Assembly (NCBI RefSeq): GCF_041468085.1
Contig: NZ_CP121017.1
Location: forward strand, 3,781,501-3,845,500
DNA length: 64,000 bases
Origin: Tistrella mobilis
GTDB taxonomy: Bacteria > Pseudomonadota > Alphaproteobacteria > Tistrellales > Tistrellaceae
Direction of reading: 5' to 3'
Part shown: positions 6,156 through 10,479 of the stretch, piece by piece
How the letters are laid out: each line of letters begins with the position of its first letter
How positions within the stretch are numbered: position 1 is the first letter of the stretch
Translations under genes and position numbers: made by a program
The notes under the pieces: model-generated
Seen by the model: the letters and a program-made list of their open reading frames with translations, nothing else
Database searches by the model: none
What the model was told of the DNA's origin: nothing

Positions 6156-8681
6156 TCAGGTCGCCGCACTCCGGTTCTGCGCCGCGCGGGCCCGGGCGAT
6201 GCTCTCGAAGGTCTCAAGCAGGTCGGGGTCGCGGCGCATCAGCCGGCGGAAATCGTCGGCATCCAGAAACAGCAGCTGGCAATAGCCGAGGGCGGCGATT
6301 TCGGCACTGCGCGGACGGTTGTCGAGCAGGGCCATCTCGCCGAAGAAGTCGCCACGGCCCAGTCGGATGCGGCGATCCTCGATCCGGACCTCGACGGCAC
6401 CCGACGAGATGAAGTAGACGCCGTCGCCCTTATCCCCCTGTCGGAAGATGATCGTGCGCGGCAGCACGAAAACCGGCCGGAGCAGCTGGCGGACCCGCGC
6501 CCGCAGCTCGTCGCCCAGATCGCCGAACAGCGGCAGGCGGCGCATCAGCTCGTCGGTGTCGAGGCCCAGATCCAGCCGGGGCAGATCGTCCCGGCGCGAC
6601 TGGGCCTGGGTGACGCCGCGATAGAGATCGTCGTAAAGCTCGGCATCGAGCAGGCCTTCCTGGGCGAGCGTGTCATAGCGCGCAAGCTCGTGCCGCTCGG
6701 CCATCCGGGCCAGAAAACGCCGCTCCAGCGCCTCGGCATAATCGGGATACTGCAGACGCATGGCATCCAGCGCACCCGCCACCTGCCGGGCGCGGCCGTC
6801 GAGCATGTCGGCGATCAACTCGGCAATGCGCCGGCCCAGCATCGGCCGGATCCGCTCGTCGACATAGGGCCGCAACTCCTGGATCGCCAGGCGGAAGGCG
6901 AGCAGCATTTCGAAACGGTTGGCGAGCCGGCGGGCGAGCGGCCGGTCCATGCGCAACCGGCGGTGCAGCCAATAGGCGAAGCGGAAGCCGCGTTCGAAAT
7001 CGAGCGCGGTACGCACCACGCGCATGTAGCCGAGACGGCCCTCGTTGCGCCCGCCTTCGAGCAGGGCCTCGGTCAATCGCAGCAGCCGGTCGACGGTGGC
7101 GGTGGACAGGGTCCGCCGATCGTGCAGGTCCAGGATCAGGCCGCGCTCGCGCACCGCCAGCGCCACCAGCCCCACCCCCAGCCGCTCGCGATCGGCGATC
7201 TCGGCTTCGACATCGGTGTCGCTGGTCACCTGATCGGCCCGGCGGGCATAGGATTGGGCGATCTCGCGCACCACGCTGGGGCTGACGTCATAGCGCCGAC
7301 CGGCCTCTTCGACCGCGCCACGAACATCGGTCAGCGACAGGGCCAGCACCTGACGGCGCAGCACCTCGCCCACCGGCGACAGCCGGTCGAGCCCCAGCCA
7401 CGAGATCAGCGGCCGGAGCGTGGTGCCGTTCACGAACAGGGTGAAGAGCACATAGCCGGTGGCGGTGACCGCCACGAAGCGCTTGAGACCATCGGAAAGC
7501 CCCGGCGCCTCGACCACACCCAGTGCCAGAACCAGGGTCAGCGCACCGCGCAACCCACCCCAGAGGATCACCGCCCTGTAGCGATGGGTCACCCGGGTGG
7601 ACAGCTTCAGCATGCTGAGCACCGGCAGCAGCAGCCAGAGCGTGATCGCCCGGCCGATCAGGGCAAAGATCGCCAGCGCCAGAATGGTCAGCACGTCGTA
7701 GACGTCGACATCGGCCATCAGCCGGGGAACGACCAGGGCTGCCAGGACGAAGATCATCGATCCGGCCCAGAATGCGATCTGATCCCAGACCGCGAGCAGG
7801 TGGCGCCAGTTCTCGGGAGAGATATGTGCCCGCCCCTGGGCCGAGACGACCAGCCCTGCCACCACGGCCGCGACCACACCCGAAACCCCGATGCCGTATT
7901 CGCCGGTGACGAAGATGATATAGGCTGCCGCCACGGTCAGCGTCGCCTCGGCCGGCTTGATGTCATCGAGCAGCGGCAGCAGCACCACCACCAGCCGGCC
8001 GGTTGCAAGCCCGAACAGGGCACCGCCGATCAGGCCGATGCCGAGATCGCTCAGGGCCTGCCAGGCCATGTCGGCATTGGGTTCTTCGATGCCGGTGGCA
8101 CGGGCGGTCACCAGCGCGCCCATCAGCACGGTGAAGAGGGCGATGGCAGTGGCGTCGTTGAGAATGCTCTCCCCCTCGACCAGCCGGGTGAGGCGGCCGG
8201 GGGCACCGATGTCGCGGAAGATGGCGACCACCGCCGCCGGATCGGTGGTGGCGACGATCGCACCAAGCAGCAGACAGCCCAGGATGGGAACGCCGAACAC
8301 CGCGGAAAGCCCGAGACCGATCGAGGCGGTGGTCAACACCACCGCCACCACGGCGAGAAGCAGGATCGGTGCAATGTCTTCCACCAGCCGCCGCACATCG
8401 ATGGTAAGGGCTGTCTGGAACAGGAGCAGCGGCAGGAAGATGGTGATGACCGTCTGACTCTCGATCCTGAGATAGACGACGGCCCGGGCGGCTTCGTTAA
8501 AGACGTCGGTGAAGGATGTGAAGAGAAGGAACGCGGCCAGGGCACCGATCGCCACACCGACGGCCGCCAGCAGAACGTTCGAAGCCACGCCCAGGCGACG
8601 GGCGAGCGGTTGTATACCTGCAATGATGACCAGCAAAACGGCGAGCGTCAGTACCAGTCCCGTAATTCCGCCCGTCGTCAC
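6156..8681 (-). CDS. CPA1-type Na+/H+ antiporter with C-terminal cyclic-nucleotide-binding domain
   Basis: An 841-residue protein. Residues 1 to about 430 are a dozen or so hydrophobic helices of a Na+/H+ exchanger; the membrane core includes GAIVATTDPAAVVAIFRDIG, where the TDPAAV motif is typical of CPA1 exchangers. A long charged helical linker follows (about 430-710). The last 130 residues form a CNMP-binding domain ending in the phosphate-binding cassette FFGEMALLDNRPRSAEI, which has the F-G-E and P-R-x-A residues needed for cyclic nucleotide binding. Transport may therefore be gated by cAMP or cGMP. The gene stands alone, convergent with vapC. Confidence 0.9.
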   Translation of the reverse strand: MTTGGITGLVLTLAVLLVIIAGIQPLARRLGVASNVLLAAVGVAIGALAAFLLFTSFTDVFNEAARAVVYLRIESQTVITIFLPLLLFQTALTIDVRRLVEDIAPILLLAVVAVVLTTASIGLGLSAVFGVPILGCLLLGAIVATTDPAAVVAIFRDIGAPGRLTRLVEGESILNDATAIALFTVLMGALVTARATGIEEPNADMAWQALSDLGIGLIGGALFGLATGRLVVVLLPLLDDIKPAEATLTVAAAYIIFVTGEYGIGVSGVVAAVVAGLVVSAQGRAHISPENWRHLLAVWDQIAFWAGSMIFVLAALVVPRLMADVDVYDVLTILALAIFALIGRAITLWLLLPVLSMLKLSTRVTHRYRAVILWGGLRGALTLVLALGVVEAPGLSDGLKRFVAVTATGYVLFTLFVNGTTLRPLISWLGLDRLSPVGEVLRRQVLALSLTDVRGAVEEAGRRYDVSPSVVREIAQSYARRADQVTSDTDVEAEIADRERLGVGLVALAVRERGLILDLHDRRTLSTATVDRLLRLTEALLEGGRNEGRLGYMRVVRTALDFERGFRFAYWLHRRLRMDRPLARRLANRFEMLLAFRLAIQELRPYVDERIRPMLGRRIAELIADMLDGRARQVAGALDAMRLQYPDYAEALERRFLARMAERHELARYDTLAQEGLLDAELYDDLYRGVTQAQSRRDDLPRLDLGLDTDELMRRLPLFGDLGDELRARVRQLLRPVFVLPRTIIFRQGDKGDGVYFISSGAVEVRIEDRRIRLGRGDFFGEMALLDNRPRSAEIAALGYCQLLFLDADDFRRLMRRDPDLLETFESIARARAAQNRSAAT

Positions 8682-8797
8682 CCGTCTCTCTCCCGCATCG
8701 GCCGTCCGAACATTGCCGGATCATAGCAGAAACCGACCGGCATCGCGGTAACCAGTCTGTGACGGCTCGTGCATCACGTCGTCCGACGGGTGTTCCG

Positions 8798-9379
8798 TCA
8801 GGATGCGGTCCCGATGCCATAGGCAATGATCCCGCCGAGCGTCAGCCAGGTGGAGGCGCCGGCCATGCTGCCCGGATCGGGCGGGGACGTGCCGCCCGCC
8901 ACGAGATCCAGATCCTCGTCGTCGAATTCGAGGTCTTCGACGGCCTGCCTCCGCGTGACGGTCGCCGACGCCGGATCGGGCAGAATGAGATCGATCAGGC
9001 CCGGTTCGGCGTCGATCACATCGACGATGAGGCCGGCAGCAATATCAACGCCCTGGCCTCTCAACATCGCGACCGGCGCCACCCGCAGATCGGCCCGGAA
9101 GACCGGATCCGTTGCCGCACGCCACATCGCGGTCTCAAGCGGCCCCAGCCCCCCCGGCACGGGTGCATCGGTGAAGGGCGGCAGCGTCAGCAGCAGACGC
9201 CCGCGCCGCGGCCTGTGGACCCTCAGCCGGGCGCCGGCGGGCAGCACGACCCCCATGGTGGCCAGCGCTGCGGCGGGGTCCGACAGGAACAGGTCGTGAT
9301 AGCCGTCATCGGTCGCCGCACGCGCCAGGGCGGCGCGCAGCACGTCCGGATCGGGCAGGACGAATGGCTGGACGGTCAT
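8798..9379 (-). CDS. Orphan peptide-natural-product precursor with duplicated nitrile-hydratase-like leader and GG site
   Basis: A 193-residue protein. Residues about 18-70 (with DPAAALATMGVVLPAG and LLLTLPP) and about 84-140 (with PVAMLRGQGVDIAAG and LIDLILPDP) read as two copies of the nitrile-hydratase-alpha-like leader module of NHLP precursors. An acidic stretch then leads to EDLDLVAGG, a classic double-glycine leader end at residues 162-163. The remaining 30 residues are a candidate core: Ser/Thr/Gly-rich, no cysteine, hydrophobic C-terminus (WLTLGGIIAYGIGTAS). GGGGTG lies about 5 bases before ATG 9379. No modifying enzyme or peptidase-transporter is adjacent, so export and maturation would depend on genes elsewhere. 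Family call is by pattern, not search. Confidence 0.7.
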   Translation of the reverse strand: MTVQPFVLPDPDVLRAALARAATDDGYHDLFLSDPAAALATMGVVLPAGARLRVHRPRRGRLLLTLPPFTDAPVPGGLGPLETAMWRAATDPVFRADLRVAPVAMLRGQGVDIAAGLIVDVIDAEPGLIDLILPDPASATVTRRQAVEDLEFDDEDLDLVAGGTSPPDPGSMAGASTWLTLGGIIAYGIGTAS

Positions 9380-9636
9380 GCGGCACCCCGGCGCGGGTGG
9401 TGATGGCGAGTACGACGGCAGGCGAAGAATGAGACACCGGCCGGAAGAGCGGCCCCCGTACGGATATGTGACCATGACAGCGCATGGCCGGGTACGACCA
9501 GTGATCCCGCGCCGCCGATCAATCGCGGTTGATCGCGTCGCACGGTATCCCTGGCTTCTGCACGTGCAGGGGCAGGAGAAGACCTGCATCGTCGTCTGCA
9601 CGACAGATGGTTCCTATGCGTCCCGAGGTGACCCGC

Positions 9637-10479
9637 ATGCCAGGTCCGCGCCGCTATCCGGAGGCCGCTCTCTCCCGCTATCTCTCCAGCGGAATCCATG
9701 CGGTGCACGGCTGGCTTGACGACTTCAGCGCCGAAGCGATCGCAAAGCTCGGCGAGGCCCAGACCGATCACGGCCTGTCGGGGGCCGTGGCCGAAATCGG
9801 CGTGCATCACGGCAAGCTCTTTCTGCTGCTGCAGCTGGTCACCCGGACCGACGAGAAGGGCCTGGCGATCGATCTGTTCGAACAGCAGGAGCTGAACATC
9901 GACCGGTCCGGCCAGGGCGACCGCGGGCGGTTCATCGAAAATCTGCGCAAGCACTGCGGCGGCGAGGACGGGATGGTCATCCGGGCTGCCAGCTCCACCG
10001 ACGTGACCGCCGGCGAGATCAGGGCCACCGTCGGTCCCGTGCGCCTGTTCAGTGTCGATGGCGGCCATACCGAAGCGCTGACCGCCAATGATCTGAAGCT
10101 GGCCGCAGGGTCTCTGGTCGAGGGCGGCATCGTGGTCCTCGACGACCACTTCAACCCCTACTGGCCCGATGTGGCCGCCGGGCTCGGCCGCCACATCTTC
10201 GTCGACCAGTCACCGCTCAGGCCCTTTGCGATCACGCCCGGCAAGGTGTTCCTCTGCCATCCGGACTGGTCGGCCACCTGGCGCGATGCCCTCGTCAAAG
10301 CTTTCCCGACCGCCCATGAAAAGCAGAGCGAAATGTACGGCGCCCCGGTCGAGATTCTGGGCATCGGGCGGTTTTCGCTGCGGGCCGAGGCCGACCGCCA
10401 TCTCTGGCAGGTCAAGGCCTATGTGAAGGCGCGGCCGGCGCTGGCGTCGCTTGCCCGCAAGCTGACCGGCCGCAATTGA
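9637..10479 (+). CDS. Class I SAM-dependent methyltransferase (Methyltransf_24-like)
   Basis: A 280-residue soluble protein. The SAM-binding motif I is GAVAEIGVHHGKLFLLL (about residues 45-61), followed by AIDLFEQQ as the acidic end of strand 2, and LFSVDGGHTEALTANDL plus GGIVVLDDHFNPYWP, the pattern of Methyltransf_24 enzymes acting on small molecules or sugars. Substrate is unknown. The start at 9637 is decided by GAGGTG six bases upstream; earlier ATGs at 9607 and 9616 are in frame. It diverges from the leader-GG peptide gene across about 257 bases, so coregulation is possible but unproven. Confidence 0.78.
   Translation: MPGPRRYPEAALSRYLSSGIHAVHGWLDDFSAEAIAKLGEAQTDHGLSGAVAEIGVHHGKLFLLLQLVTRTDEKGLAIDLFEQQELNIDRSGQGDRGRFIENLRKHCGGEDGMVIRAASSTDVTAGEIRATVGPVRLFSVDGGHTEALTANDLKLAAGSLVEGGIVVLDDHFNPYWPDVAAGLGRHIFVDQSPLRPFAITPGKVFLCHPDWSATWRDALVKAFPTAHEKQSEMYGAPVEILGIGRFSLRAEADRHLWQVKAYVKARPALASLARKLTGRN

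Follow-up and report, generated by a model that had tools for sequence, protein, structure and literature searches.

Judged by its sequence, the gene at 8798..9379 (minus strand) of the window, i.e. the whole 64,000-nucleotide stretch of DNA that was analysed (G000:C4:3781501-3845500), encodes a leader-GG precursor of the NHLP family in which two leader modules are fused. We regard it as a real gene of unusual construction that belongs to a known kind of precursor, and not as a new system. The assignment is based on the translation of the open reading frame (193 aa), on the match to the family model TIGR03793 and on the orthologues. From the N-terminus, and with all features on the minus strand, the protein comprises leader module 1 (residues 10-71; 9167..9352), recognised with an NHLP HMM and by the helices and strands of the second AlphaFold model described below; a linker (residues 72-76; 9152..9166), placed with an alignment called A2; leader module 2 (residues 77-139 as the HMM slice, 8963..9151, the module proper being 77-134), recognised with the NHLP HMM and AlphaFold; a spacer (residues 135-149; 8933..8977), which overlaps the end of the module 2 slice and is distinguished by its dN/dS; a putative cleavage-recognition helix, LEFDDEDLDLVAGG (residues 150-163; 8891..8932), marked by the lack of nonsynonymous change and by positions known from a C39 groove; and the predicted core TSPPDPGSMAGASTWLTLGGIIAYGIGTAS (residues 164-193; 8801..8890). 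The translation confirms the leader-GG layout that had been proposed from the sequence, with a Cys-free core formed by the 30 residues after the GG; eight of these are Ser/Thr, and the monoisotopic mass computed from the window sequence is 2848.40 for the unmodified peptide. The whole precursor is devoid of Cys, and hence of a CxxCSC metal motif.

In the search with TIGR03793 (NCBIfam) the precursor obtained 54.8 bits, summed over two stretches and above the cut-off of 50.9, which bears out the proposal, made in the sequence-only reading, of an NHLP precursor with a duplicated leader. Taken singly, module 2 with the GG motif (32.5 bits, E 3.6e-7) and module 1 (24.5 bits, E 1.2e-4) fall under this cut-off. 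Matches below the respective thresholds were also obtained with NF038399 (38.2 bits in two stretches, family cut-off 40), with TIGR04509, and with the nitrile hydratase alpha models TIGR01323 (18.2 bits, cut-off 249.85) and Pfam NHase_alpha (19.7, threshold 27.2), the last one spanning both modules (residues 17-137). TIGR03795 (NHLP-Burk) was absent among the five NCBIfam families that matched the precursor at E <=10, a search in which filters drop most matches above 0.1.

The putative recognition helix and the GG in which it ends are identical in the three orthologues (three genomes), and the GG that homologues were expected to conserve is thus invariant. Counting from the expected cut, the helix presents V-4, L-7 and F-12, the same positions that occupy the C39 groove of LahT. 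In the available text of a study on MprE7, MprC was again able to form azolines when Phe stood at a Leu position of the LXXXXL motif (PMC12455567), a result that concerns leader recognition by an enzyme other than a C39 peptidase.

The start of the protein at MTV is indicated by the distribution of differences over codon positions. Between the window and the orthologue of Tistrella mobilis KA081020-065 (NC_017956.1; T. mobilis hereafter), the first 130 codons differ mostly at position 3 (7, 7 and 39 differences at positions 1, 2 and 3) and the 35 codons upstream of MTV differ evenly (3, 7 and 6), with which both remaining pairwise comparisons concur. An upstream start, either GTG 9601 or a conserved ATG, was rejected on this flat pattern. 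A fused two-product precursor was also considered and rejected: there is a GG at residues 76-77 of the linker, but no recognition helix precedes it, it has a Pro at -3, and T. mobilis has AG there. The same holds for a phage or defence protein, for which no PHROGs or PADLOC match was found at E 0.1. A consensus scan of 8600-9800 gave no promoter-like or terminator-like sites.

Distribution and selection

Orthologues are present in all three Tistrella genomes, including the window's own, with 83% identity in the two others, and none was detected in the remaining 382 of the 385 sampled genomes of the class (E 1e-8, up to eight candidates scored per genome); a search at the level of the order returned the same three Tistrella genomes only. 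Across 398 genomes of the phylum (E 1e-5) we recovered the gene itself, one single-module match in its own genome and one single-module match elsewhere. A pattern scan of genome contigs, which reaches close relatives only, yielded 488 stretches and among them one relative, that of T. mobilis, and no plasmid-borne relatives were found by tblastn at E 1e-5. The gene order antiporter, precursor, divergent methyltransferase and TRAP transporter is kept in T. mobilis, and in the 3.6-kb locus read from the genome G002 the antiporter starts just downstream of the precursor. The methyltransferase gene (window 9640-10479, plus strand) encodes a Methyltransf_24 protein.

The modules are under purifying selection, with dN/dS values of 0.16 (window vs T. 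mobilis) and 0.40 (window vs G002) for module 1, and of 0.12 and 0.16 in the same comparisons for module 2. The spacer has values of 1.77 and 0.98 in these two comparisons and of 0.12 between T. mobilis and G002, and differs from the modules with p 1e-7 and 4e-9, while the GG helix has no nonsynonymous difference in about 32 sites in any of the three pairs. For the core, taken as residues 164-190 with the last three left out, dN/dS is 0.52 (window vs T. mobilis) and 0.34 (window vs G002), and T. mobilis and G002 show no nonsynonymous difference; its nonsynonymous rate exceeds that of the modules about twofold, a difference that is not significant with three orthologues only (p 0.15 and 0.16). 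Over the full 30 positions of the core, 21 are identical and nine vary among the three orthologues. Control cores of single-leader NHLPs, compared across three genomes, vary at 1/30 (C1:470512), 4/29 (C4:2148888, beside the exporter) and 3/26 positions (C1:469377). Since these controls barely vary, conservation of the core is normal within Tistrella, and the core of the doubled-leader precursor is more variable than all three.

Relation to NHLP leaders and to nitrile hydratase

We compared each module with an NHLP HMM, made here from 17 leaders picked by hand from the matches read, and with HMMs of repeats 1 and 2 of nitrile hydratase alpha, made from all 19 alphas read. The NHLP HMM leans to the Tistrella lineage, because 11 of its 17 leaders come from the window's genome. 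Module 1 scored 39.2 bits with the NHLP HMM, against 15.2 and 10.3 with nitrile hydratase repeats 1 and 2, and module 2 scored 36.4 bits, against 5.9 and 8.1, so that the NHLP HMM leads by at least 24 bits on both. Shuffled versions of the two modules reached maxima of 9.9 and 6.4 bits with the NHLP HMM (474/500 and 480/500 scored). By these profiles both modules are NHLP-like, with the stated lean of the NHLP set towards the window's genome, and on the same scores we rejected direct descent from a nitrile hydratase alpha that had lost its Cys.

The arrangement of the modules, in turn, is that of nitrile hydratase alpha (PF02979/TIGR01323), which has two repeats in the same order and with similar spacing: its halves lie 62-64 aa apart in 19/19 enzymes and are linked by profile-profile comparison with 95.7% probability, and the modules of the precursor are 67 aa apart. 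A profile of the three orthologues is collinear with solved nitrile hydratase alphas over residues 18-141, at a weak E of about 0.03. In contrast to the enzyme, the precursor has no N-terminal arm and has a C-terminal GG and tail, and its module sequences are closer to NHLP. It also lacks the metal claw, which in alignment A2 (15/19 nitrile hydratases and 14/17 NHLPs) appears as CTLCSC in the alphas, near linker 72-76.

A first AlphaFold model, for which only the three orthologues were aligned, could not be used (mean pLDDT 35.1), and a second one, from 33 aligned sequences, had a mean pLDDT of 73.5, with about 82-96 at residues 11-130 and 74 at residues 131-140. In this second model, module 1 has helices at 11-23, 25-33 and 35-40 and strands at 51-55 and 61-66, and module 2 has helices at 80-90, 92-100 and 102-108 and strands at 118-123 and 128-132, each thus repeating the three helices and two strands reported for MprE7 in the accessible part of PMC10858898. 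Beyond the modules there are low-confidence helices up to 154-160, followed by a disordered tail. The best solved match is nitrile hydratase alpha (Z up to 7.4, 121 residues, rmsd 4.0), and the next are Os1348 (6lk7), 8tb1 and 9cjx; with Z below 8 these matches are modest, and the two-repeat packing is partly imposed, because the alignment behind the model included 15 nitrile hydratases.

These likenesses raise the question of whether the protein is a precursor at all, or a metal-free pseudoenzyme or scaffold protein similar to nitrile hydratase alpha that keeps its tail. Such a protein would account for the collinear profile match and for the structural match over both modules, the tail is fairly conserved (21 of the 30 positions), the top single z for module 1 is with a nitrile hydratase repeat (L072, 14.3), and the genome G123 encodes a Cys-less protein that has two modules but no clean GG. 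However, the module scores favour NHLP, TIGR01323 gave 18.2 bits where 249.85 are needed, the most constrained part of the precursor is the GG helix, and the fold match is partly built in by the 15 enzymes in the alignment. We consider a pseudoenzyme or scaffold very unlikely, and retain the precursor assignment.

In the available text of Haft 2010, a 63-residue deletion separates NHLP leaders from nitrile hydratase alpha (PMC2887384). This is the length of one repeat of the alpha subunit, and the accessible parts of PMC2887384 and PMC10858898 contain no statement equating the two. We tentatively put forward, as a possibility that we still find doubtful, that the doubled leader rebuilds the nitrile-hydratase-alpha fold without its metal. 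The fusion of two NHLP genes would have restored the two-repeat arrangement of this enzyme, a relative of the single leaders, and the result would be a self-contained leader domain that brings a hydrophobic, essentially unmodified peptide to the NHLM exporter. If true, the 63-residue deletion would correspond to an entire repeat of an enzyme with an internal duplication.

Evolutionary history of the two modules

We consider the fusion of two NHLP genes the most likely source of the doubled leader. In the comparison with other NHLPs, module 1 came closest to C4:2148597, which adjoins the exporter (z 13.5), and module 2 to C1:470893 (z 18.8), and the two modules compared with each other gave z values of 3.0 to 7.2. 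Fusion fits better than self-duplication because each module resembles a different single-leader paralogue more. The best tree (61 columns, 25/51 inner branches open, 15/19 nitrile hydratases used) also groups the modules with different paralogues, with supports of 91/79 and 90/90. A tandem duplication of the gene's own leader would instead place both modules in one clade, which the AU test does not reject (p 0.354); with the z values and the best tree against it, we judge such a duplication to be unlikely, and fusion remains the favoured origin, although the tree does not settle it. Two-module matches with an internal stop were observed in the genomes G002 and G001, the one in G002 being two separate adjacent NHLP genes.

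Export and maturation genes

A complete NHLM set is encoded in the window's genome at C4:2,139,825-2,146,458, 1.64 Mb from the precursor gene, with HlyD (TIGR03794, 271 bits), ABC1 (TIGR03796, 1042 bits, at about 2,141,174-2,143,450) and ABC2 (TIGR03797, 835 bits) all above their cut-offs. ABC1 bears a Peptidase_C39 domain, in which direct reading of the sequence found ECGA, HFVVL and NDP retained, which we take to be the catalytic residues. An OEP outer-membrane channel and two NHLPs come next; both NHLPs have Cys-free tails, one of them lacks a clean GG, and the other has a hydrophobic, Gly-rich and Cys-free core, VGGPVVAPGGDDMLLVFGSGGVTFTLGGG, similar in character to TSPPDPGSMAGASTWLTLGGIIAYGIGTAS. 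No maturase was recognised among the eight neighbours tested, seven of which are ScpA, ScpB, a glycosidase, a SPOR protein, a response regulator, and proteasome-type and transglutaminase-like proteins. TIGR03796 is also matched above cut-off in G001 and G002. A second NHLM-like set at C4:2,096-2,101 kb remains below the cut-offs for both ABC1 (849.5 vs 853.3) and ABC2 (559 vs 709); this set (L031:6201-13298) adjoins a gene whose product has a double-glycine motif and, after it, a long tail rich in Gln.

Within the window, TIGR03796 (75/219 candidates scored), YcaO and LANC_like gave no match, and no LanM or YcaO lies beside the precursor. The earlier observation that exporter and maturase are missing is therefore correct, for these families, in the window and not in the genome, where the scan for such genes found, besides the full exporter, one YcaO and two LanC-like proteins. 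Likewise, the precursor is an orphan locally, but all three Tistrella genomes encode a C39 peptidase-exporter. Nor is being an orphan special: the genome has five NHLP places, including this gene and the pair beside the exporter, and one of the five adjoins an NHLM exporter; remote siting is also listed in Haft 2010, as far as its accessible text goes.

The other places hold five NHLPs at C1:469-471 kb, at least three at C2:423-425 kb and one at C4:2456 kb. The genome has at least 12 NHLPs, and none of the ten cores tabulated contains Cys, a table that leaves out C1:470893 and C4:2148597, which have no clean GG, and a probable fourth gene on C2. The C2 array (L035:4558-6520, plus strand) consists of three, probably four, NHLPs, and its three tabulated cores are Cys-free and net positive, like linear membrane-active peptides. 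The C1 array (L033:5291-7169, minus strand) comprises five single-leader NHLPs with Cys-free tails and, by eye, adjoins an ABC transporter and siderophore-uptake-like genes. Two further peptide genes were noted: a Cys-rich peptide (CCCTCTPACCCT; L087:11452-11769, minus strand) near the only YcaO gene, which is likely an azole-peptide precursor, and a short peptide ending in VAGAGSPWCMFTNGCYCFFTK (L086:10275-10661, plus strand) just 3' of a LanM-like gene, likely a lanthipeptide precursor.

In our view the best reading, which we hold to be probable, is that of a leader-GG peptide which undergoes little modification and whose cleavage and export take place in trans. The two modules would pack into one fold, as the two repeats of nitrile hydratase alpha do, and the distant NHLM peptidase-exporter would bind the LEFDDEDLDLVAGG helix, cut after the GG and export the 30-residue peptide, which would probably be unmodified or lightly modified, just as it would handle the Cys-free-tailed NHLPs encoded beside it. 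We can only guess that the exported product is a membrane-active or signalling peptide. The suggestion of little modification, already made in the sequence-only reading, fits because the exporter locus holds two Cys-free-tailed NHLPs and no maturase in the eight neighbours tested, whereas the physical separation of the precursor gene from the NHLM exporter counts against export in trans.

Lanthionine formation requires Cys, which the core does not have. A maturase acting in trans, either YcaO, LanM, the divergent methyltransferase or a radical SAM enzyme, might still modify the core before export through its eight Ser/Thr, given the YcaO and LanC-like proteins of the genome and the Methyltransf_24 gene, which is the divergent neighbour also in T. 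mobilis. NHLPs can, moreover, sit far from modification genes, according to the accessible text of PMC2887384. Against such a maturase, the YcaO gene and one of the two LanM-like genes are each accompanied by their own short peptides with Cys (read by eye), the core is Cys-free and the methyltransferase gene is transcribed divergently. Maturation in trans seems to us rather improbable, and cutting and export with little modification is preferred.

Discussion

The precursor shares with the NHLP family TIGR03793, or proteusin-type precursors (Haft, Basu and Mitchell 2010), the leader fold, a ELSDEELEAVAGG-like motif, the GG and a short tail, as well as a location away from the exporter; in the available text, distance from modification and export genes is indeed a property of NHLP families (PMC2887384). 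It differs in having two leader modules instead of one, and its leader has 163 aa, compared with an average of 83 or 87 aa given there for NHLPs. The nearest precedent, in the literature as far as accessible, is the fused NHLP-Burk (TIGR03795) pair (PMC2887384; also PMC4603692), in which two NHLP-type units are likewise joined in a single polypeptide, in Delftia and Acidovorax. Those pairs, as described there, unite two precursors in the vicinity of cyclodehydratase-docking proteins and do not have motif 2, whereas the present protein ends in a single tail and has no cleavage helix separating its modules. In view of these pairs, the earlier statement that known precursors have one leader was too narrow, and nitrile hydratase alpha, with its 62-64 aa period, is itself built of two repeats. 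The Os1348 family of the NHLP clan (NF038399; PDB 6lk7) has a related small fold and matches in two stretches, but below its cut-off of 40.

A 179-aa protein of another genus, in G123 (L082:8563-9099, plus strand, also L076:1480-2016), resembles the precursor in having two modules, no CxxCSC and no peptide cluster seen around it. It differs in that the highest score of its module 1 is with nitrile hydratase repeat 1 and that of its module 2 with NHLP, and in its degenerate GG and period of 78; NHLM ABC1 was not found in the G123 genome, which is 94% complete. A search with this protein reached seven further genomes of 384, and all seven loci hold a CxxC[ST]C protein, on which grounds we regard them as nitrile hydratases; the search thus gave no second protein of the G123 type. 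The NHLP literature, surveyed through titles and the beginnings of abstracts and with subscription papers thinly covered, yielded no report of a single-core precursor with two NHLP leaders, and the Tistrella pearlin paper, in its available text, concerns another peptide, TmoA (PMC9303977).

Research on peptide biosynthesis has yet to explain why NHLP leaders are so long and folded, and a natural precursor in which the leader domain is present twice offers a ready test of the role of the leader in cutting, export and stability. In the parts available, the NHLP papers treat NHLPs chiefly as substrates for modifying enzymes. Because the exporter locus in this genome holds Cys-free-tailed NHLPs and no maturase among the neighbours tested, there is a hint that NHLM systems may also export unmodified Cys-free peptides.
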